Source: Bacteroidales bacterium
Lineage (GTDB): Bacteria; Bacteroidota; Bacteroidia; Bacteroidales; UBA12077
Length of the DNA: 64,000 bases
Assembly (NCBI GenBank): GCA_018334675.1
Contig: JAGXLL010000002.1
Location: 62,001-126,000, forward strand
Direction of reading: 5' to 3'
Below, piece by piece: positions 49,308-61,736 of the stretch (position 1 is the stretch's first letter; every line of letters begins with the position of its first letter). The notes beneath the pieces are model-generated. The model was given only the letters and a program-made list of their open reading frames with translations, did no database searches and was not told the DNA's origin. Both the position numbers and the translations under genes were made by a program.

Positions 49308-51530
49308 TTATTTTTTTAGTTCATATAAATAATACTCATCTTCGTTGATCTCTTCCGTATCCTTCACGAAGCCATATTTTCTCAACGACATTAAGTAATA
49401 CATTACATCTTCACTCGGGTGCTTCAACTCTGCAGCTATTTCAGGAATTGCTTTAGAACCTGATTCAAGTGATTGAAGTATTCTCTTGCTCATTTCAGGT
49501 AATGCATTTGCCAGTTTGTCTGCGTTATTGGTCACACCTTCAGCTGATTCGGCTTCTTTTGCCTGATGGTCTTCAATTAACCGGACATCTTTAACAAAAG
49601 CATCAATCATCCCTTCTATTTCCTCATTGGAGTAACCAACAATACTTATTGCATCAGAAGGACAAACGGGAGTACATGCTCCGCAACCTTTACACAAGGC
49701 TTTGTTTACTTTAGCTACAGTTTTCCCGTCCGCTTCCACTTTTTCAAATGCATTGTAACTGCAAAGTTCATCACACTTTCCGCACCATTCACAAAGATCA
49801 GTATCAACAGTTGCAATAATTGGCTCAAGCTCTATCTTTCCCGAGTTAATCAATGAATTGGCTTTTGCTGAAGCGGCTAAAGTTGAAGCCATGGTGCCCC
49901 TCACATTTTTAGGACTCTGGCAAGCACCGGCAATAAAAACACCATCAATTACAGTCTCTACAGGTCGGAGTTTTGTATGCACCTCATTATAAAATTTATC
50001 GCTTCCAATAGGAACTTTCAAAATTTCAGCAACACTTTGATCCTTTCTTTGAACCATTCCGGTAACCAATACAACCAGGTCGGCAGAGACTTCAATGTTT
50101 TCATTTTGTGTCAGTGCATCCTGAACGGTTATTTTAGTTTGTTCACCTCTCTTTTCTACTTCAGGAAATGCTCCTTCAAAAAACTGGAGGTAAATATCCC
50201 CTTGTCTCGAAGAGTCGGTAAAGCATGTTTCCTGTTTTCCATAGGTTCTGATGCCCCTTGTAATATGGAAATTTCTGACTTCAGGATATTTGTTCTTTAC
50301 ATTCAATGCCGACTGAATAGCAGAGGTACAACAATAACGCGAACAATGTTTGTTGTCCCCATCAGGCTGGCGACTACCAACACAATATATGTAGGCAATA
50401 TCCCGGATCTTCTTTCCTTTGTATTCAAGCGTTCCATTGCTCATATCAAGTAAGCGGCGGAATTGCTGAAGAGTAATCACATTGTCTACAGTTTTATATC
50501 CAAACTCACCCTCCTCAGGTTCATACGGGTCAAACCCGGTATTAAGAAGGATAGCACCCGCATTGAAAGTAATATGCTCCACTTCCTGATCAAGATCGAT
50601 TTTTCCGTCACAGATTTTTTGGCACGCTCCACACTTATTACACAATTCCATATCAATTACAGGACTTTCCGGATAGGCTTCCCTGTAATTTTTATAGATC
50701 GCTTTGCGTTTGGTGAGCCCAAAATTGAATTCATCCTCCACTTCAAGCGGGCAGGCTTTCAATACCTGATCGAGAAAATCGTCGTCGCATTTTCCAAAGA
50801 CATACCGGGGTGTTATCTTAACACCTAACTCGAAATTACCAATGTTCCCATTTAAAGATTCAACCTCTGCTCCTGTAAAGAGTGTAATGTCATCGCGTTC
50901 TTTAATTTGTTTATAAAGTCGCTCAACAAGATTTTTCCCTTCCTCGTTTGTTGGAAATAAATGACCCCACTGAGCTGTTCTTCCTCCTACAAAGTGATCT
51001 TTCTCGATCAGATACACCTGACTTCCCTGGTCAGCCAGTTCAATGGCTGAACGCATTCCGGAAATCCCTGCACCAATAACAGCGGCAACGTTTTTTGCTT
51101 CAATTTCAATAGGTTGTAAACTTTGAGACATTCTGACCTTTGAGATAGCCGCTCTTATAATACGTACCGCCTTATCCGTTGCATCATCGGTACGGTCGGA
51201 ATGAGCCCATGAGCATTGCTCCCGGATGTTTGCATGGACATAGTTGTATTGGTTTAGCCCGGCCCTCTTTGCCACATCCCTGAAAGTGAGCAAGTGCAGC
51301 TTAGGAGAACAGGATGCTACCACCATACCATCCAGATCGTTTTCAATGATCTTTTCAATGATTTCAACCTGGGCTGAATCGGAACAAGTAAACATGGTTG
51401 TTTTCACTAACTGAACACCAGGTTCATTTTCAACAACTTTTGCTACTTTTTCCACCTCTACATAATCGGAAATATTTCCGCCGCAATAGCAGATGAATAC
51501 GCCTATTTTTTCTTTATGATCTTTTTTCAT
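49308..51530 (-). CDS. HdrA/QmoB-like FAD and iron-sulfur oxidoreductase with C-terminal winged-helix-like extension
   Basis: GVFICYCGGNISDYVEVEKVAK, VVASCSPKLHLLTFRD, GAGISGMRSAIELADQGSQVYLIEK, CNKCGACQKICDG, CEWCGKCDELCSYNAFEKV, CKGCGACTPVCPSDAI. Confidence 0.88.
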   Translation of the reverse strand: MKKDHKEKIGVFICYCGGNISDYVEVEKVAKVVENEPGVQLVKTTMFTCSDSAQVEIIEKIIENDLDGMVVASCSPKLHLLTFRDVAKRAGLNQYNYVHANIREQCSWAHSDRTDDATDKAVRIIRAAISKVRMSQSLQPIEIEAKNVAAVIGAGISGMRSAIELADQGSQVYLIEKDHFVGGRTAQWGHLFPTNEEGKNLVERLYKQIKERDDITLFTGAEVESLNGNIGNFELGVKITPRYVFGKCDDDFLDQVLKACPLEVEDEFNFGLTKRKAIYKNYREAYPESPVIDMELCNKCGACQKICDGKIDLDQEVEHITFNAGAILLNTGFDPYEPEEGEFGYKTVDNVITLQQFRRLLDMSNGTLEYKGKKIRDIAYIYCVGSRQPDGDNKHCSRYCCTSAIQSALNVKNKYPEVRNFHITRGIRTYGKQETCFTDSSRQGDIYLQFFEGAFPEVEKRGEQTKITVQDALTQNENIEVSADLVVLVTGMVQRKDQSVAEILKVPIGSDKFYNEVHTKLRPVETVIDGVFIAGACQSPKNVRGTMASTLAASAKANSLINSGKIELEPIIATVDTDLCEWCGKCDELCSYNAFEKVEADGKTVAKVNKALCKGCGACTPVCPSDAISIVGYSNEEIEGMIDAFVKDVRLIEDHQAKEAESAEGVTNNADKLANALPEMSKRILQSLESGSKAIPEIAAELKHPSEDVMYYLMSLRKYGFVKDTEEINEDEYYLYELKK

Positions 51531-54268
51531 TTCAACCTCCTTAAATAACTTGCTGCTTCAGAAGCCGCACCGCCTGCAGAAAGAATGGTATCCGGAATAT
51601 CTTTGGGACCGGAGGCTGTTCCTGCGACAAATACTCCATCTATATTTGTTGAAGCGGGACTGGCTAATTCATCAACTTGTTTGACATAATTGAATCTATC
51701 CAGCTCAATGGATTTTTCTGAAAACATGCCGGAGACATCCATATTCGGAAGAGCCCCAACAGACAGCACAGTTAAATCATGTTTGGCTTCCTTTACTTTA
51801 CCTTCCAGGACATCTTCATATCTCAATATCATATCTCCATTTTCGCTTTCCTTCACTTTCGCAACTTTTCCTTTGACAAAGTTGACCCCCATCCCTTTGG
51901 CTCGTTGATAGAATTCTTCGAAACCTTTTCCGAATGATCTGATATTCATGTAATAAATTGTAATATCGGCAAGAGGCAATGCGCCCATCAATAATTGAGC
52001 TTGTTTGATGGAATACATACAACAGATTTGTGAGCAAATCGGGTTTCCAACGGTTTCATCCCTTGATCCGGCACATAGTATGTAAGCAATGTTATCAGGA
52101 ATCCTTCCGTCCGATGGTCTTAGAACTGTGTTGTAAGGACGGGTGGGAACCAAATGTCGTTCCATATCCATTGCTGTTATCACATTGGATATTTTTCCTC
52201 CACCGTAGTTGGGGAGATTTTCCTTGGGGAAGAGCTTAAATCCGGTGGAAACAATAACAGATTTTGCATCAACAGAAAGCTCTTCTTCCTTTTGAGAAAA
52301 ATCAATGGCATCGGCAGGGCATGCAGAAACGCATTGATGACATTCCCTGCAAATATTACAATCCAGACACCTGCTGGCATTCAGGAAAGCTTCTTCCTCT
52401 GAATAGGTGGCTTCAATCTCTTCAAAATCTTTAATCCTTTCTTCGGCGGATCTTTCATATGCCATTACAGGCATTACCGATGGCTGATTTTCCATCCGGG
52501 CCAGCACTTCTTCCTTACTGGCAGGGGGTAATCTGTGATCAAATTCATGATCCGCCAGGTTTTCCCCCTGCAAATATTTATCAATAAAGAAGGCGGCTCG
52601 TTTCCCTTGCCCGGCTGCTTCAATAATTGATGAAGCACCTGTAACCACGTCACCACCGGCAAAAATATGTGCCTGGGAAGTTTGCAGGGTTTCAGAATTC
52701 ACATTGATGGTACCGTTCTTATTCAATTCCAGTTCATTGGTGAAAGTAGAGGTTGTGGCAAGCAAACCGATTGAGGTAATTGCCAGCTCTGCTTTTATAA
52801 CGTGTTCCGAACCTTTTATCTCTTCAGGCCTTCTTCTTCCACTTGCATCAGGTTCACCCAGTTTCATCCTGACACACTTCACTGCATTTAATTTTCCGTT
52901 TTCTCCTATGAATTCGACAGGATTCTTTAGAAACTGGAATTCAATACCTTCATCTTCTGCTTCTTTTACTTCCACATCAGCAGCCGGCATTTGATAACGG
53001 TCACGGCGGTATACAACTATTACTTTCTCCGCTCCCAATCTTTTTATTGTTCTGGCTGAGTCCATAGCAACATTTCCTCCACCAAAAACCAATACCGTTT
53101 TACCTGAAACATCCATCTTATCTCCCTTGTTTACACTTTTCAGGAAAGATAAACAGCACAATATACCCTCAAGGTCCTTTCCTTTGAGGTCAAATTTCAC
53201 GGTTTCATGCGTACCGACAGAAACATAAATTGCATCAAACCCCTGGCTTTTAAGCTCTTCAAAATTTTCCACAACATGATTCACTTCATATTCAACACCA
53301 AGAGCCGTAATGTTCTTTATATCTCTTTCTACAATATTATTGGGAAGGCGAAAAGAAGGAATGGATGATTTTAACATACCACCCAATTCGCTGTCGCCCT
53401 CGAATATTTTAACGCTATGTCCGGATTTTGCCAGATGATAAGCAGCTGTCAAACCTGAAGGTCCTGACCCGATAACAGCCACCTTTTTACCAGACTGAGC
53501 TTCAATATCTTCAAATTTGGGTTCTGAATATTTATTGTAATAATAATCAGAAAAAAATCTTTTGATGCGACGAATAGTTACGGGTTCGTCTTTATCTTTT
53601 CTTGTACATTCTCCTTCACAGGGTGCATAACAAGCCCTTCCGAGTGAACCGGGCAGTGGAATATCCTCCAGGTGAAGATTCATAGCTTCTTCATACAATC
53701 CATTCCGGACAAGAGAAACATAGCCATGTGCTTTTACTCCACCCGGGCAGGTGGTAATACAGGGAGAAGAGGTTCCGTTTCTTTGTATAGTGGCTACCTT
53801 AGGACTTGCAGTTGTAAATGGGATAAATGCTGTTTTCTTGGCAACAAATCCATAATTATAAGGATCTTCGTTATATTCAGGGCAACTCACTTCACATTCG
53901 CTACACCCTGTACAGATAGATTCATTGACGTATCTTGGATTCTTAATGATGTTTGCATTAAATCCATTTCCGTTTTTGGCTATACCTTGAACTTCGCTGT
54001 AAGTTAAAAGAGTTATATTGGGATGGCGGCTTGTTTCAGACATTTTGGGTGTCGTAATGCAAGCAGAGCAGTCAAGTGTAGGAAATACTTTGCTCAGGTG
54101 GATCATTTTACCACCAATAGACAGGTCTTTTTCAACCAACAGCACTTTAAATCCCATTTTAGCGAGATTAAGAGAAGCTTCCTGACCTGCTACACCGCCT
54201 CCAATAATTAGCGAATCGTATTTGTTATTATCCATCTTTTTGTCCGGTTTCGTTTTTAATACTTCCAA
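51527..54268 (-). CDS. HdrA/QmoA-like protein with inserted GltD/NfnB-like NAD(P)H-FAD module
   Basis: 913 aa; HdrA N-term DSLIIGGGVAGQEASLNLAKMGFKVLLVEKD; CTGCSECEVSCP; GltD-like PCITTCPGGVKAHGYV, GRACYAPCEGECTRK, VAVIGSGPSGLTAAYHLAKSGHSVKIFE, VFGGGNVAMDSARTIKRLGAEKVIVVYRRDR; then CLDCNICRECHQCVSACPADAI and HdrA C-terminal half. Confidence 0.88.
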   Translation of the reverse strand: MEVLKTKPDKKMDNNKYDSLIIGGGVAGQEASLNLAKMGFKVLLVEKDLSIGGKMIHLSKVFPTLDCSACITTPKMSETSRHPNITLLTYSEVQGIAKNGNGFNANIIKNPRYVNESICTGCSECEVSCPEYNEDPYNYGFVAKKTAFIPFTTASPKVATIQRNGTSSPCITTCPGGVKAHGYVSLVRNGLYEEAMNLHLEDIPLPGSLGRACYAPCEGECTRKDKDEPVTIRRIKRFFSDYYYNKYSEPKFEDIEAQSGKKVAVIGSGPSGLTAAYHLAKSGHSVKIFEGDSELGGMLKSSIPSFRLPNNIVERDIKNITALGVEYEVNHVVENFEELKSQGFDAIYVSVGTHETVKFDLKGKDLEGILCCLSFLKSVNKGDKMDVSGKTVLVFGGGNVAMDSARTIKRLGAEKVIVVYRRDRYQMPAADVEVKEAEDEGIEFQFLKNPVEFIGENGKLNAVKCVRMKLGEPDASGRRRPEEIKGSEHVIKAELAITSIGLLATTSTFTNELELNKNGTINVNSETLQTSQAHIFAGGDVVTGASSIIEAAGQGKRAAFFIDKYLQGENLADHEFDHRLPPASKEEVLARMENQPSVMPVMAYERSAEERIKDFEEIEATYSEEEAFLNASRCLDCNICRECHQCVSACPADAIDFSQKEEELSVDAKSVIVSTGFKLFPKENLPNYGGGKISNVITAMDMERHLVPTRPYNTVLRPSDGRIPDNIAYILCAGSRDETVGNPICSQICCMYSIKQAQLLMGALPLADITIYYMNIRSFGKGFEEFYQRAKGMGVNFVKGKVAKVKESENGDMILRYEDVLEGKVKEAKHDLTVLSVGALPNMDVSGMFSEKSIELDRFNYVKQVDELASPASTNIDGVFVAGTASGPKDIPDTILSAGGAASEAASYLRRLK

Positions 54269-54953: not shown

Positions 54954-55367
54954 TTATAGCGTAATATTGAGATCTGCACCAGATGCTCCTTCCAGGTATT
55001 CGCCGATACCTACGATTTCATCCACCAGATCGATAAAGTCTTCTTTATTTTCTCCACCTGCCACTTTTCCAGCCAGACTACATACATAAACATTTACTGA
55101 AGTCATATCCTTAGCCATTTCAAAAAATTCCGTCCATTTTGGCGTGGAAAACTGGTCGAGTGCCTGCTGAAATTTTTCCGCACTCTGGGCTGTATCCGCC
55201 ATACCGCTGACATTTCCATTCTGGCTTTTTACAAAAGCCTGACCGGCATTGACAAGGACATATACATCAACTTCCATATCCTCGGCAGCAGCCCCACTCA
55301 ATATAACTCCTGCATTGGTTAATTTATCTAATGAAGAAGTTGTTAATGCTAAAACTAATTTTGACAT
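54954..55367 (-). CDS. DsrE family (DsrE2-like) protein
   Basis: Start chosen at MSKLVLALTTSSLDKLTNAGVILSGAAAEDMEVDVYVL; Cys in VYVCSLAGKVAGG. Confidence 0.7.
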   Translation of the reverse strand: MSKLVLALTTSSLDKLTNAGVILSGAAAEDMEVDVYVLVNAGQAFVKSQNGNVSGMADTAQSAEKFQQALDQFSTPKWTEFFEMAKDMTSVNVYVCSLAGKVAGGENKEDFIDLVDEIVGIGEYLEGASGADLNITL

Positions 55368-55386
55368 ATTTCTCTGTTTTAATGAT

Positions 55387-55896
55387 TCAACCACCACATC
55401 CTCCTCCGGATGATTCTTCATTTTCAGGCGCAGCAGGTTGGGATTCATCCATTCCCTGTTCTACCCATTCCGGGTAAGCTTCTTGCCAATCAAACCAACT
55501 AAAATCCAGGAGATGACAGTCGGAATATTTGAGCAACTCCAGATTCTTGACAGCTAATGCTCCGCTTGCCATTTCATTACCAAATACCAGGGTTTTTAGC
55601 CTTCGATTTGAAAGTTTACCGGAAAACTCAAGCAACCCCCTGGGAATATGCATTGCAGAAGGAAAATGCCCAAGAATGTAATCGTATTCTGTCCGGCAGT
55701 CCACAATCTGGATGTTAACATTACTATCCAGCAATGCCCTGAATTGATCCATACCCATAAGAGAAATATCTTTCTTCGCTGTTTTTATCATTGCTTCAGG
55801 ACTTTCATATACCTTCTCCGTATCGAGCGGATTGCTGCAATTCCAAAAAAGGAACAGAAAAAGGAAGGCGGATATAAATAATTTTAAATTTTTCAT
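55387..55896 (-). CDS. Rhodanese-fold lipoprotein, active-site Cys missing, C-terminal GGGCGG tail
   Basis: IQIVDCRTEYDYILGHFPSAMHIPRG; active-site loop reads VFGNEMASGALA (no Cys); ends SSGGGCGG. Confidence 0.75.
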   Translation of the reverse strand: MKNLKLFISAFLFLFLFWNCSNPLDTEKVYESPEAMIKTAKKDISLMGMDQFRALLDSNVNIQIVDCRTEYDYILGHFPSAMHIPRGLLEFSGKLSNRRLKTLVFGNEMASGALAVKNLELLKYSDCHLLDFSWFDWQEAYPEWVEQGMDESQPAAPENEESSGGGCGG

Positions 55897-55903
55897 GCTT
55901 CTG

Positions 55904-56713
55904 TTAATTTAATTTCCACTCATTGTAAGCTCCATCGTAAACGGTTACATTGGAATACCCCAGCACTGAATTAAGGGCAAGAAATACGATACCGGCACGT
56001 GCACTTGTAGCGCAATAGAGAATCACTTCCTTATCCTTTGTGATCCCTGCACCCTTGAAAAGTTTGGCAAGTTCTTCCTTTGATTTCAATTTATCGCTAT
56101 CAGTAAGGACATTTTTATACTCCAGGTTTCTTGCGCCATTGATATGCCCTTCGTTAAATTCCTTATCGCTTCGCACGTCCAAAAGAGCCGCGCTGCTGAG
56201 CTTTGATTTTACATAACCCATGTCAGCAAAAATTGCCTTATTTACCTTAGGAGTAAAAGAAGTGGCTTGAACTTTGGTACCGCCATTGGTAACCGGCCCT
56301 CTTGCAGACCTCCAGGCTCTCATGTGCCCATCCATAATATTCACATCGGAAAAACCAAGATATTTGAGAACCCAATAAAGTCTTCCGGAACCAATGCCTG
56401 AACCACTATCATAAATAATGATTTTCTTGTCAGGAGAAATCCCTTTTCCTCCCAGAAGAGTGGCAAGTTCAGAAGAACCTTTCAATATGCCTTTAGGTTC
56501 ACCATCTTTTTCAAGTGTACCCATTGGTACATTTACTGCACCCCTGATATGCACCTTTGCATAATCACTTGCACCGCGAGCGGATACTACAATAGTATTG
56601 CTGCTTTTGAGCGCTTTCTTTGTATCGGCAGCAGAAATTAAATCCTGCGCCATGGAAGCCTGAGAGAATATAAGCATGAAAACCAGGCTGAATAAAATAC
56701 GTTGTGTCTTCAT
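55904..56713 (-). CDS. Secreted tandem-rhodanese sulfurtransferase
   Basis: 269 aa; signal peptide; VVSARGASDYAKVHIRGAVNVP; YDSGSGIGSGRLYWVLKYLG; VILYCATSARAGIVFLAL. Confidence 0.88.
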   Translation of the reverse strand: MKTQRILFSLVFMLIFSQASMAQDLISAADTKKALKSSNTIVVSARGASDYAKVHIRGAVNVPMGTLEKDGEPKGILKGSSELATLLGGKGISPDKKIIIYDSGSGIGSGRLYWVLKYLGFSDVNIMDGHMRAWRSARGPVTNGGTKVQATSFTPKVNKAIFADMGYVKSKLSSAALLDVRSDKEFNEGHINGARNLEYKNVLTDSDKLKSKEELAKLFKGAGITKDKEVILYCATSARAGIVFLALNSVLGYSNVTVYDGAYNEWKLN

Positions 56714-56761
56714 AATCTTCTTTCTTTTTATTTATTAATAATGCAGGCAAACAGCCTATTG

Positions 56762-57793
56762 CTAAAAAATAACCTGGGCCTGAATAACGAACTGATCGTT
56801 GGGCACCTCATCATCTCCCTCAGCCCTGTAGCGATAGTTCAACTGCAAGCGGGTCCAGTCGTTCATAAAGTAGTTCATCCCATATGTTAACACGGTTTCC
56901 GTATTGTTATCAATCGAAACATCCGAGTCATAAGCCTCATACTTCAGAACAGGCTGAATACTCCATTCAGTCATATACATAGCCTGCACAAAGTAGCCAT
57001 TCCGGGTAACGCCACCGGTATGGTATTCAATAGGCGTTCCGTCACAACCTCCACCGGTGGTATAATCTCCGGTATCGTCCCCCCAGAGGTACTCACCCTG
57101 GAGAAGAAAATTACCCAGTGTGAGTTGCAGCTCACCGCCCAAGCGGGTTTTTGTATTGTCGGATTCAGGACCTGTCATACCATAAGCAAAACTTCCTCCC
57201 ACCTGAAGTTGCTCAATGGGAGAAAACGTGAGGCGGCTCTTGAGACTCTTTTCTTTATTCTCATCCTTAAACCCCATTTTATAATCGTTCATGAAAGCGA
57301 TGTAATAATTTATCCTGGCGTCCATCAGTTTTCCGGAGAGCATCACTCCCAGGTCCCGTTGGGGTGCTGCCAGCTCATTAACCACCTTTGAACGATATAC
57401 GGTGTGTAAGCTTTGACAAGCCGTGTTTTGTTCCAGACTGAGGGGAGATTTGAACTGTCCGACGGAGGCATTTAACCAATCAAACCTATTGTAGGTGATG
57501 AATGCATCGAGAACATAGGGAGAACCAGGTTTAAACCTGGAAAAATCAACCATTAAATAATAACTAATGTCATAAGGGATATTCCCAAGTACACCCAACC
57601 TGGCACGATTGAAAGTAAAACTGTTGCTATTGCCTCCATCCGTTGTTTGTGCGTATTCCCACTGAGGTTGGAGATAACCTGCAATGTTCACACCTTCGGA
57701 AGAAGCTTCCATACATCCTTGCCCATTGGCCACCTGTAATGCAAACAGAGACGCTACAAACAGCAGGGCAACTCTTATTTTGTTTTTACGCAT
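56762..57793 (-). CDS. OprP/OprO-type outer-membrane porin
   Basis: 343 aa; signal peptide; FTFNRARLGVLGNIPYDISYYLMVDFSRF; QLNYRYRAEGDDEVPNDQFVIQAQVIF. Confidence 0.82.
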   Translation of the reverse strand: MRKNKIRVALLFVASLFALQVANGQGCMEASSEGVNIAGYLQPQWEYAQTTDGGNSNSFTFNRARLGVLGNIPYDISYYLMVDFSRFKPGSPYVLDAFITYNRFDWLNASVGQFKSPLSLEQNTACQSLHTVYRSKVVNELAAPQRDLGVMLSGKLMDARINYYIAFMNDYKMGFKDENKEKSLKSRLTFSPIEQLQVGGSFAYGMTGPESDNTKTRLGGELQLTLGNFLLQGEYLWGDDTGDYTTGGGCDGTPIEYHTGGVTRNGYFVQAMYMTEWSIQPVLKYEAYDSDVSIDNNTETVLTYGMNYFMNDWTRLQLNYRYRAEGDDEVPNDQFVIQAQVIF

Positions 57794-57856
57794 ATCTTAA
57801 TCGATTAGTCTGTAAAAGAAAAGCTGAGCAGGACATTCCTGCCCAGCTTAAAATAT

Positions 57857-58822
57857 TTATTCCAAAGGAAGATCAGTTGATGGCGTGGCCCATTTATGAC
57901 TTTCCAGGTTGTCATAAATCATTCCGTTCGCACCGAATTTTAAACTAAGCGCATCATACCCCAATACATACAAGTATGCTGAAATAACAGAGGATGTCTG
58001 GCCGGTCCAGCAATACGTAACAATGCTTTTTTCAGGGTCGAGTTTTTTGTATTCTCCACCAGCAAGGGTTAAAGGTTTAATTCGGTATGCACCGGAAATG
58101 TTACCATAATGCTCTACATCTTCAGCACCCCAATAGTTATTTATAAAATACGATCCGGGATCGCCTAATACATCACCGTTACCCACACCATTAAATCCGT
58201 TTGATAATAAAGCATTTACTCTTGCTTCAAGAATTTCTGCGCCGGTTCCGGTTTCTGTGATATCCGGGTCATCATATTCATCAGTAGCTTCGACAGTTGA
58301 GCCGGGTGAATCAATCCATCCATCATTTGCTGTATTGCCAACATTAGACTCCCAGGGAGCCGAAAGTGAGCTGTTCCAGCCACTCATACCCCACTTGAGC
58401 ACTTTGGCATCCGGATATCCACTGAGTCGCAAAGCAGCAACTGCATGCCCGGCAGTTTGTCCTGTGTAACACACTACAACAGGTGTTTTATCACCTGCAT
58501 CCTCAGCAGTGGCAAGTATATTTCCTAATGTCGAATTCACAGCTCCGGAAATGCTGCCGCCATTATAAGACTCACTGCTTCTGATATCAATGACATAATA
58601 ATTGCTCAGGTTTGCATTTACATCCTGGGCTGTTGTTATCCAACCATCCAATAGATTGTTTAAATCCAGGTTTTCTGACTGCAGATGGGATACCAATGTC
58701 TGGAATTCTTCATCCGTTTGACGATTTGGTTGTAAGTCATCATCAGAATCCTCCTTACAGGAAGTGAGGATGACTGCTGAAAACAAAATGGCTAAGACTG
58801 AAATTTTCATTAAATTTTTCAT
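57857..58822 (-). CDS. Tandem rhodanese-domain lipoprotein
   Basis: Lipobox AVILTSC; active-site loops VVCYTGQTAGHA and VTYCWTGQTSSVI. Confidence 0.85.
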   Translation of the reverse strand: MKNLMKISVLAILFSAVILTSCKEDSDDDLQPNRQTDEEFQTLVSHLQSENLDLNNLLDGWITTAQDVNANLSNYYVIDIRSSESYNGGSISGAVNSTLGNILATAEDAGDKTPVVVCYTGQTAGHAVAALRLSGYPDAKVLKWGMSGWNSSLSAPWESNVGNTANDGWIDSPGSTVEATDEYDDPDITETGTGAEILEARVNALLSNGFNGVGNGDVLGDPGSYFINNYWGAEDVEHYGNISGAYRIKPLTLAGGEYKKLDPEKSIVTYCWTGQTSSVISAYLYVLGYDALSLKFGANGMIYDNLESHKWATPSTDLPLE

Positions 58823-58862
58823 AATACTTGGTTTAATCTATTAATAATCATTTCTTTAATAA

Positions 58863-59348
58863 TTAACCGCCACAACCTCCCGAATCCGCTTCTTTCTCAA
58901 TGGCGGGTTCACCACCCGAGAAAGCGATCCAGCCACCTTTCAGGTTAGCGACGTTTTTAAATCCCAGTTGCTTTAGAGTATGAGCAGCAAGAACTCCTCT
59001 TACACCGGATTGGCAATAGACGATAATCTGATCTTCCTTCTCCGGGGTATACATGAATTGTTCTTCCCAGAAAGAGTCATCAAATATCTGGAATTCCAGA
59101 ACACCGCGGGGAATAGAAACAGACCCGGGTATGTTTCCTGCTTCCTTCTCATCCGGTTGCCTCACATCCAATAAGAGGAACTCAGCTCCATTATCGATCA
59201 TCGACTTTAAGGAATCGACTCCTATTTCATGTATTTCTGAGCGAAGACCATCGGCTAACTCATTCCCATCTTCATAAATACCTGTACAACCGACAGATAA
59301 AAAGAATAGGAGTGCTATTAGTGATACATTAAGTTGCATATATTTCAT
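58863..59348 (-). CDS. Rhodanese lipoprotein with C-terminal GGCGG tail
   Basis: Lipobox FFLSVGC; LLLDVRQPDEKEAGNIPGSVSIPRG; YCQSGVRGVLAAHTLKQLGF; ends EADSGGCGG. Confidence 0.87.
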   Translation of the reverse strand: MKYMQLNVSLIALLFFLSVGCTGIYEDGNELADGLRSEIHEIGVDSLKSMIDNGAEFLLLDVRQPDEKEAGNIPGSVSIPRGVLEFQIFDDSFWEEQFMYTPEKEDQIIVYCQSGVRGVLAAHTLKQLGFKNVANLKGGWIAFSGGEPAIEKEADSGGCGG

Positions 59349-59396: not shown

Positions 59397-60611
59397 TTAA
59401 AAAGCGCTGAATTTCCCTGTCCGTTCATTCCATTTGACAAAAAGGTACCAGCTGAATATGACGAGAAGTACAATCAGCACCGCACCAGTGTAGCCAACAT
59501 AGTCCGGCAAATAACTCCTAAACTTCATGGTATGTGGCAGCAGGCCATCTACGCCGTCCACGATGAATGATTTGGAAAGGGGGGAAATTAAAAGAAAACC
59601 AATGGCAGACATCCACAGCTTCACCTGTCCTTCACCTACCCGCCATAGTGTACCGACAGCGCAACCACCGGCAACTGTCATTCCCAGTCCGAATATAAAC
59701 CCTCCGAAAAGACCTCTTAACCAGAAATGCCCAAAGACCCATGCCATCTCTCTTGCGCGCAAAGCGTTTTCGCCGGCGCCTATTCCAAAGTATTTAATGG
59801 CTGTAAACCCCACTAAGGTGATAAGCAATCCGGCCATCACACCCACGGAACCATCCGATTCCCCGGTCATAAATGGATCTCTGAAAGCTTTAACAATACA
59901 AAAACGTGACCTTTGGCATATCAGTCCCATCAGCAAGCCTGAAATGATGAACCAGGCCAGTACACCGTTGGTTCCAGCTACCTGGTACGCCAAACCAAAA
60001 ACACCAATGAAAATGATCCAGCCAAGATAAACCTGCCAGTTTCCCTTCTTCTCCGTAGCAGAAAGAAAGGTATAACTCTTGCCGGTACTTATTTTGGGAT
60101 ATTTCTCCATTTCCCACATAAGATACCTCAAGGCAACAATGGTCCCGGCAAATAAACCCATGGTGAAAATTATGGCACCTCCAGATAGAGCGGGTACACC
60201 ACTGAAGAATGAGCCAATTGTGCAACCCAAACCAATAGTTGCACCAACAGCCATTAAACCGCCACCAATAAATCCTTTCACCAATTCACCTTTGGGAGGG
60301 ATACGAAGAGCAAATTCCTTTGAAAATAAGGCTCCAACTAATGAACCAACTATAATGATTAAACATAATATACCATATAAACTGGCACTTGTTGGGGTGG
60401 CATTTTCAAAACCGGCAATTCCAACGCTTTTAAAAACATTCTCACCCCAGTTGTTTATGCCACCGCTCGCTCCCCATGGACTTTTAACAGCAAACAACAG
60501 GATATTTAACAAACCAAGCGTCACTCCACCGACCCATACAGGCCAGTGTTTTGAGAAAAAGGTGTTGTATAGTTCTCGCAATATACCCGGTTCTTTATTT
60601 TGTTGTTCCAT
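59397..60611 (-). CDS. YeeE/YedE (TsuA-like) thiosulfate/sulfane-sulfur transporter
   Basis: 404 aa multi-TM; Cys motifs IGLGCTIGSFFSG, ICQRSRFCIVKAFRDPF, VAGGCAVGTLWRVGEG. Confidence 0.88.
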   Translation of the reverse strand: MEQQNKEPGILRELYNTFFSKHWPVWVGGVTLGLLNILLFAVKSPWGASGGINNWGENVFKSVGIAGFENATPTSASLYGILCLIIIVGSLVGALFSKEFALRIPPKGELVKGFIGGGLMAVGATIGLGCTIGSFFSGVPALSGGAIIFTMGLFAGTIVALRYLMWEMEKYPKISTGKSYTFLSATEKKGNWQVYLGWIIFIGVFGLAYQVAGTNGVLAWFIISGLLMGLICQRSRFCIVKAFRDPFMTGESDGSVGVMAGLLITLVGFTAIKYFGIGAGENALRAREMAWVFGHFWLRGLFGGFIFGLGMTVAGGCAVGTLWRVGEGQVKLWMSAIGFLLISPLSKSFIVDGVDGLLPHTMKFRSYLPDYVGYTGAVLIVLLVIFSWYLFVKWNERTGKFSAF

Positions 60612-60620
60612 TTTAACCTC

Positions 60621-60851
60621 CTACTTCTTTTGGATTAAAAACCTGAAGGCACCACCTTCCATCTCTCCTTCTTCAACCAATACATTGCCAGTTTTTGTAC
60701 ACCATTTGGGTAAATCAGATTTTGTTCCAGGATCGGTACCCAACATTTCCAGCACTTCACCAGAACTTAATTTCTTAATTGCCTTTGCCAGTTTCATCAT
60801 TGGCATTGGGCAAGAAAGACCTTTACAATCTAATGTTTCTTTTATTTCCAT
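60621..60851 (-). CDS. TusA family sulfur carrier (TsuB-like), first gene of the operon
   Basis: LDCKGLSCPMPMMKLAKAIKKLSSGEVLEMLGTDPGTKSDLPKWCTKTGN. Confidence 0.92.
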   Translation of the reverse strand: MEIKETLDCKGLSCPMPMMKLAKAIKKLSSGEVLEMLGTDPGTKSDLPKWCTKTGNVLVEEGEMEGGAFRFLIQKK

Positions 60852-60956
60852 AATGACTCGATTTAAGTGTTAATTCAATAACACAAATATTGTTAACAAT
60901 TTCACAGTAAAAAAGAAAACCCTGCTGAGATACATCCAGTATAAAAGGACAAAGAG

Positions 60957-60996
60957 ATCAGTGAAAAAACTGATCTAGATCAGTTTTTTCACTGAT
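60957..60996. promoter_or_regulatory. Perfect 40-bp palindrome, candidate Crp/Fnr operator
   Basis: ATCAGTGAAAAAACTGATCTAGATCAGTTTTTTCACTGAT equals its own reverse complement; centre TGATCTAGATCA resembles FNR half-sites. Confidence 0.8.
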
Positions 60997-61040
60997 TTAT
61001 TCATTATATTTATAACCTGATTAATTTTAAATCTTTGTAT

Positions 61041-61736
61041 ATGAAGTATTTGAACGCACTAAACAGTTGCACTGTCAGTAATGCCAAATGCATCTGTTTT
61101 GATTTTCTGACTCCGGAGCAACAAGAATTAATCAATCAAAATTCAACAGATGTTCGATTTAAAAAGGGTGAAAATATATGCAAACATGGAACCTTATCTC
61201 CCCATATTATCTATTTAAAGTCAGGATTGGCCAAAATTTTCATGGAAGGTCTGAATGAGTCGTTAATATTAAAAATCATTCCCCCGGGGAATCTTATCGG
61301 GTTAACATCGCTGCGTGATGGCAATAATCGGTTTCATTATTCATCAATGGCTTACATGGATTCTGAGGCTACATTAATCGATATCGATGTATTCAGAAAA
61401 ATAATAAATGAAAACGCAAAATTTGCCTCTTCAATCATCGATATATTGTGTGAAAATTCCTTGCAAACGTTTGGCAGATTCTTTTGTTTTACCCACAAAC
61501 AACTCTATGGTCGCCTTGCAGATATTCTCTTATGTCTGTCTGAAAGAATATTTAAAGAGGATGAATTTGAACTCAATCTTTCCAGAAAGGAATTAGCAGA
61601 ACTAACAGGAATGTCCACAGAAAGTGTTATCCGGATGCTCAAAAAATTTAAAGACGACCAGATTATTCAGATGGAGGGTAAAAAAATCAGGATAACCGAT
61701 GCCCAATTACTGAAAAAAATCAGCGAATACGGTTAA
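61041..61736 (+). CDS. Crp/Fnr family transcriptional regulator
   Basis: Cyclic-nucleotide-binding-like fold GENICKHGTLSPHIIYLKSGLAKIF; HTH LSRKELAELTGMSTESVIRMLKKFKDDQII; N-terminal Cys cluster SCTVSNAKCICF. Confidence 0.9.
   Translation: MKYLNALNSCTVSNAKCICFDFLTPEQQELINQNSTDVRFKKGENICKHGTLSPHIIYLKSGLAKIFMEGLNESLILKIIPPGNLIGLTSLRDGNNRFHYSSMAYMDSEATLIDIDVFRKIINENAKFASSIIDILCENSLQTFGRFFCFTHKQLYGRLADILLCLSERIFKEDEFELNLSRKELAELTGMSTESVIRMLKKFKDDQIIQMEGKKIRITDAQLLKKISEYG

Follow-up and report, generated by a model that had tools for sequence, protein, structure and literature searches.

The window analysed here, a stretch of 64,000 nucleotides from a draft assembly of a Bacteroidales genome, contains a gene for a Crp/Fnr regulator of 231 amino acids (61041..61733, + strand; Pfam HTH_Crp_2 7.4e-17, cNMP_binding 1.2e-9) that is divergent from a group of sulfur-transfer genes. 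The first gene of the divergent operon encodes a TusA sulfurtransferase (60621..60851, - strand; Pfam TusA 2e-25) and lies beside a gene for a YeeE/YedE (SoxT/TsuA-like) sulfur transport membrane protein (59397..60611, - strand; Pfam Sulf_transp 2.4e-49), whose matches to the NCBIfam YedE and TsuA models fall below the cut-offs of those models. The remaining sulfur genes (54954..59348, - strand) were found by domain search to encode four rhodanese-domain proteins, a porin and a DsrE-like protein. Near these DsrE, TusA and rhodanese genes there is also a gene for an HdrA-like/NAD(P)-binding flavoprotein (51527-54268), and together they may form a cytoplasmic sulfur oxidation module.

Direct checking of the sequence between tusA and the regulator gene verified the exact 40-bp self-complement that an earlier note on this DNA had reported, ATCAGTGAAAAAACTGATCTAGATCAGTTTTTTCACTGAT (60957-60996; no strand is assigned to it or to the boxes described below), which is separated by 105 nt from tusA, whose start is at 60851, and by 44 nt from the regulator ATG (61041). 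This palindrome is not due to chance: a base-composition model predicts 5.6e-8 such palindromes for the window and 2.7e-6 for the genome, and the runner-up in the window has only 18 bp. It is present as one copy in the 3.09-Mb draft genome, which rules out a dispersed palindromic repeat (REP/MITE), as these require many copies per genome.

The most convincing reading of the palindrome is that it forms one segment of an array of FNR-like half-sites, phased at 22 bp, that precedes the Crp/Fnr regulator gene. At its centre is a complete FNR-type operator dyad, TGAT-N4-ATCA, referred to here as box 0 (TGATCTAGATCA, 60971..60982, centre 60976.5), and its outer TGAT and ATCA are the inner half-sites of boxes 22 bp off on either side; from the box coordinates, the palindrome therefore comprises the right half-site of box -22, a linker, the full box 0, a further linker and the left half-site of box +22. 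Box +22 (TGATTTATTCAT, 60993..61004) has a perfect left half-site and a right half that is not conserved. Towards tusA, the fit of box -22 (ACAAAGAGATCA, 60949..60960) is limited to its right half, ATCA, so that both flanking boxes are degenerate in this genome on the side facing away from box 0, box +22 in its right half and box -22 in its left. A degenerate fourth box, box -45 (TGAGATACATCC, 60926..60937), is the closest to the tusA promoter and reads TGATGTGCATCC in the alignment of the closest relative. The nested symmetry described previously is thus real, but the outer arms fit 22-bp-phased half-sites better than they fit the outer operator ATCAGTGA/TCACTGAT that had been proposed. When the 18-bp dyad ATCAGT-N6-ACTGAT was taken as the unit instead, a genome-wide search returned mostly scattered matches with one or two mismatches, and this dyad was discarded as the repeating unit.

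The primary sigma factor of Bacteroidota has TAnnTTTG as its -7 consensus (PMC7366714), and a box of this type, TATATTTA (61005..61012, + strand), precedes the regulator gene. Because this -7 box sits at a fixed distance from the central box, the operator centre is placed at approximately -40 relative to a start site that is itself predicted (the FNR-type reference being -41.5), and box +22 falls between the -33 and -7 regions, within the regulator core promoter. On the other side, a putative tusA -7 box (AATATTTG, 60884..60891, - strand) has one mismatch to TAnnTTTG, is conserved in a AATCTTTG/A-like form and lies in a strongly conserved stretch.

By scanning genome contigs we identified 80 loci with homologous regulators (49-77% identity), mostly in sequences titled as metagenome-assembled genomes of Bacteroidales and other Bacteroidota, giving 81 with the window; the term orthologs is used for those assigned by identity and shared neighbourhood rather than by a tree. 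The exact box TGATNNNNATCA was present within 220 nt upstream of the regulator in 52 of the 81 loci, compared to 0.63 expected from mononucleotide shuffles, which ignore shared ancestry. When 50 loci were aligned on the box, half-sites recurred with a period of 22 bp: T at -22 and G at -21 were each seen in 40 loci and TGAT at +22 in 30, with a weaker site at -45/-44 (TGAT at -45 in 9/50) and TAnnTTTR beginning at offset +33 in 27. Among 24 representatives whose proteins share less than 70% identity, TGA was found at +22 in 13, at -22 in 9 and at -44/-45 in 7, relative to a mean of 0.44 at other offsets (binomial tails of 6e-17 for +22 and 3e-10 for -22, ignoring shared ancestry). Similarly, TGAT was positioned 11 nt ahead of TAnnTTTG in 17 of 34 array promoters and in 0 of 65 generic TAnnTTTG promoters.

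Scoring of the 29 loci lacking the exact box, with a profile built from the other loci, placed 22 of them level with or higher than 99% of the 327 upstream regions used as controls; the other 7 showed no array above this control level. The regulator itself, at two loci (L124 and L072), is among the top-scoring controls, as are several genes on the minus strand, for which the upstream region is apparently the same intergenic stretch approached from the divergent side. As judged from these alignments, a row of evenly spaced putative sites is common to a group of uncultured Bacteroidales. The core box and the flanking half-sites are therefore conserved upstream of orthologous loci, as the earlier note had expected of an operator, and this conservation supports its suggestion of an FNR-like operator at the regulator/tusA divergon. 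Its further suggestion, that two dimers may bind, is in keeping with the conserved phased half-sites, which are consistent with occupancy by more than one dimer.

Conservation of the perfect 40-bp palindrome was not borne out. Most close relatives (72-77% protein identity) aligned with an imperfect left arm and with a box -22 reading TGAGATTGCATA, in which the left half is retained; all 14 of the 14 arm pairs are complementary in this genome and several are mismatched in the relatives. Of the genomes seen, only this one has the perfect symmetry, whose acquisition would therefore be recent, so that the exact 40-bp symmetry is, on the alignment, a recent and lineage-specific sharpening of an imperfect ancestral arrangement. 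A second near-perfect operator symmetry was found upstream of the regulator at a distant locus (L103), with fully complementary 14-nt arms around the non-palindromic core TGATTTGAATCA. Across the 24 representatives, arm self-complementarity exceeded that of permuted arms in the correct register only (7.08 versus 5.70 of 14, P 0.0005), and the excess persisted after removal of the two perfect cases (P 0.003), but the run-length form of the signal vanished without them (P 0.29). Template switching is a known route to perfect inverted repeats (PMC8794818), and switching between the arms is a plausible but unproven cause of the perfect symmetry here, the alternative being that both half-sites coevolved with the protein. 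The locus is a natural setting in which to distinguish selection from arm-to-arm template switching as the origin of perfect operator palindromes.

The neighbourhood of the regulator was also recurrent. At many loci the regulator gene is divergent from tusA-yeeE-rhodanese, and at many others a rhodanese lipoprotein gene lies farther upstream on the opposite strand, with an intervening gene that encodes a multihaem cytochrome in both of the loci read (L104 and L105); the link to sulfur transfer is thus a repeated one. These two multihaem cytochrome c genes are divergent from the regulator (L104:1464-2819 and L105:1374-2750), and the L104 protein had no NCBIfam match. Searching this genome with exact patterns only, we found the box with its -7 pattern once, and the regulator therefore looks, from its candidate sites, dedicated and local. 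In a search of six genomes from this family, regulator-upstream sequence accounted for six of the eight matches. The wider search for the motif that the earlier note had proposed thus located the array in related genomes, and the box plus -7 pattern was absent elsewhere in this one. The genome has one further exact match to TGATNNNNATCA-N10-TGAT, located inside a reading frame (L133). Other box matches with TAnnTTT downstream include one (L131) before a gene whose product we take, from its sequence, to be a phosphoserine aminotransferase, and its spacer carries no TGAT at +22. A dispersed inverted-repeat element, approximately GAAACGTCCATGACAAAATAATCATTAATATCACAAAAGGAGATGATTATTTTGTCATGGTAAGTTACACAAGGCC, has about 20 core matches in the genome (e.g. 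L140, L143 and L146 on contigs C24, C31 and C49) and none in the window.

The regulator protein carries the cNMP-binding-like beta roll and Crp-type helix-turn-helix of the Crp/Fnr superfamily, with both Pfam models above their cut-offs and a predicted secondary structure that fits the superfamily. Recognition-helix residues Glu194 and Arg198 are invariant in the 81 orthologs and correspond to the residues with which the recognition helix of FNR and CRP reads TGA. Cys10 and Cys165 are also invariant, with Cys19 present in 75 and Cys17 in 59 of the 81. FNR, a [4Fe-4S] oxygen sensor, has four cluster cysteines, three of them N-terminal and the fourth, Cys122, in the beta roll. The only cysteines of the regulator are at positions 10, 17, 19, 47, 137, 149 and 165, with none from 48 to 136, so that there is no equivalent of FNR Cys122, the four cluster cysteines of FNR proper are not all represented and the protein is not to be filed as FNR; its score against the NCBIfam Fnr model was 44 bits, relative to a cut-off of 228. 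Sensing of sulfane sulfur or redox state by the invariant Cys10 and nearly invariant Cys19 is a reasonable guess, made by analogy with the ArsR-type regulators that adjoin SoxT/TusA genes elsewhere.

On the evidence as a whole, the palindrome is probably the middle portion of an operator with several sites that serves the adjacent Crp/Fnr regulator. A position near -40 is the classical activating (class II) position for FNR and CRP, and a regulator dimer at the complete box 0 would be placed to activate the regulator's own gene, while the +22 half-site inside the core promoter may cap this autoactivation when the regulator is abundant. Box -22 and the degenerate box -45, towards the tusA operon, could recruit more dimers for the divergent promoter, so that the targets would be the regulator's own promoter and the tusA-yeeE-rhodanese operon. 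With FNR-like dyads (TGAT-N4-ATCA) every 22 bp, or approximately two helical turns, the dimers would share one face of the DNA. Tandem dimers with a centre spacing of 22 bp may clash sterically, and the outer half-sites may therefore not hold full dimers. From this arrangement we infer that the adjacent regulator binds the element and activates from box 0, that box +22 provides feedback and that tusA is affected. The proposal that the element serves as operator for both divergent promoters is favoured on the regulator side by the fixed -7 box; on the tusA side it is weakened, as the putative tusA -7 box lies about 80 nt beyond the central box and the nearest site to it is the degenerate -45 box. 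Across the orthologs the divergent side showed no -7 box at a fixed position, and control of the divergent operon is therefore less certain than autoregulation.

The evidence for phasing bears directly on a simpler, and in our view unlikely, explanation in which the FNR-like box 0 is the sole protein site, the flanking TGAT half-sites serve as core promoter or RNA polymerase contacts and the outer arms have no role. Box 0 is indeed the only fully symmetric conserved dyad, the outer boxes being half-sites, but TGA occurs at the 22-bp phase on both sides, including positions -22 and -44/-45 that lie outside the core promoter, and TGAT at +22 is lacking in all 65 generic promoters. Less probable again is that the array is the operator of another Crp/Fnr paralogue with a shared half-site, the adjacent regulator being cross-regulated. 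The genome encodes four other Crp/Fnr homologues at E <= 1e-20, any one of which could bind instead, and a similar box, TGATATATATCA, is found in the space separating another Crp/Fnr gene from one for a sulfide:quinone reductase; against this, across Bacteroidales the array goes with orthologs of the adjacent regulator, and this locus is the only one in the genome at which the box occurs together with the -7 pattern.

A role as RNA, whether as a hairpin in a leader or as a terminator acting in both directions between the divergent genes, is the least credible of these explanations and highly improbable. The predicted hairpin is strong (z -4.8) and there are terminator-like matches on both strands, but such a fold is to be expected from any palindrome, a terminator is unneeded between divergent genes, and at two loci (L054 and L056) the hairpin is weak or absent where the array is retained. 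In addition, both genes are predicted to start transcription downstream of the element, and the fold lacks conservation; the earlier idea of a hairpin in the regulator mRNA leader thus found no support. Returning to the phased operator, a bolder extension of it, which we regard as speculative, is that an undescribed Bacteroidales clade of Crp/Fnr proteins might oligomerise along the 22-bp half-site array and so form a graded, autoregulated switch that governs the import and oxidation of sulfane sulfur, with arms repeatedly re-symmetrised by template switching.

In E. coli FNR class II promoters, the FNR box TTGAT-N4-ATCAA is at -41.5. The present locus resembles these in its TGAT-N4-ATCA dyad, which is predicted to lie near -40, and in the conserved recognition-helix Glu and Arg, but differs in its half-sites phased every 22 bp, in lacking a Cys122 equivalent, in its Bacteroidota promoter type and in the base 5' of TGAT, which is mostly C (30/50) and not T. 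Promoters with two FNR/CRP sites are exemplified by yfiD, where activation can be tuned by the second site. The present locus likewise seems to offer its regulator more than one site, although as a contiguous array at 22-bp spacing with one half-site in the core promoter. A complete box at a predicted position near -40, with half-sites every 22 bp, would constitute an operator grammar by which a dedicated regulator controls sulfur-transfer genes in uncultured Bacteroidales, and a narrow search of the open-access literature returned no description of such a grammar or regulator, or of FNR arrays at 22-bp spacing.

Among regulators of sulfur genes, SoxR and sHdrR of Hyphomicrobium are sulfane-sulfur-responsive ArsR-type repressors encoded beside SoxT/TusA genes (PMC10451225, PMC11582611). 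The locus described here shares with them a dedicated regulator that has conserved cysteines and adjoins genes for sulfur import and for TusA, rhodanese and DsrE proteins, but the regulator is a Crp/Fnr protein. HcpR of Bacteroides and Porphyromonas is likewise a Crp/Fnr protein of Bacteroidota and controls a stress or redox locus; it is described as haem-binding and related to nitrosative stress, and differs in that no sulfur neighbourhood is seen for it in the accessible part of that source (PMC13370916). Elsewhere in the present genome (L152, contig C52), the second Crp/Fnr gene with a similar box is divergent from a gene for a type III sulfide:quinone reductase, which matches the NCBIfam selenoprotein subtype model at 648 bits, and the box lies just upstream of the regulator gene.
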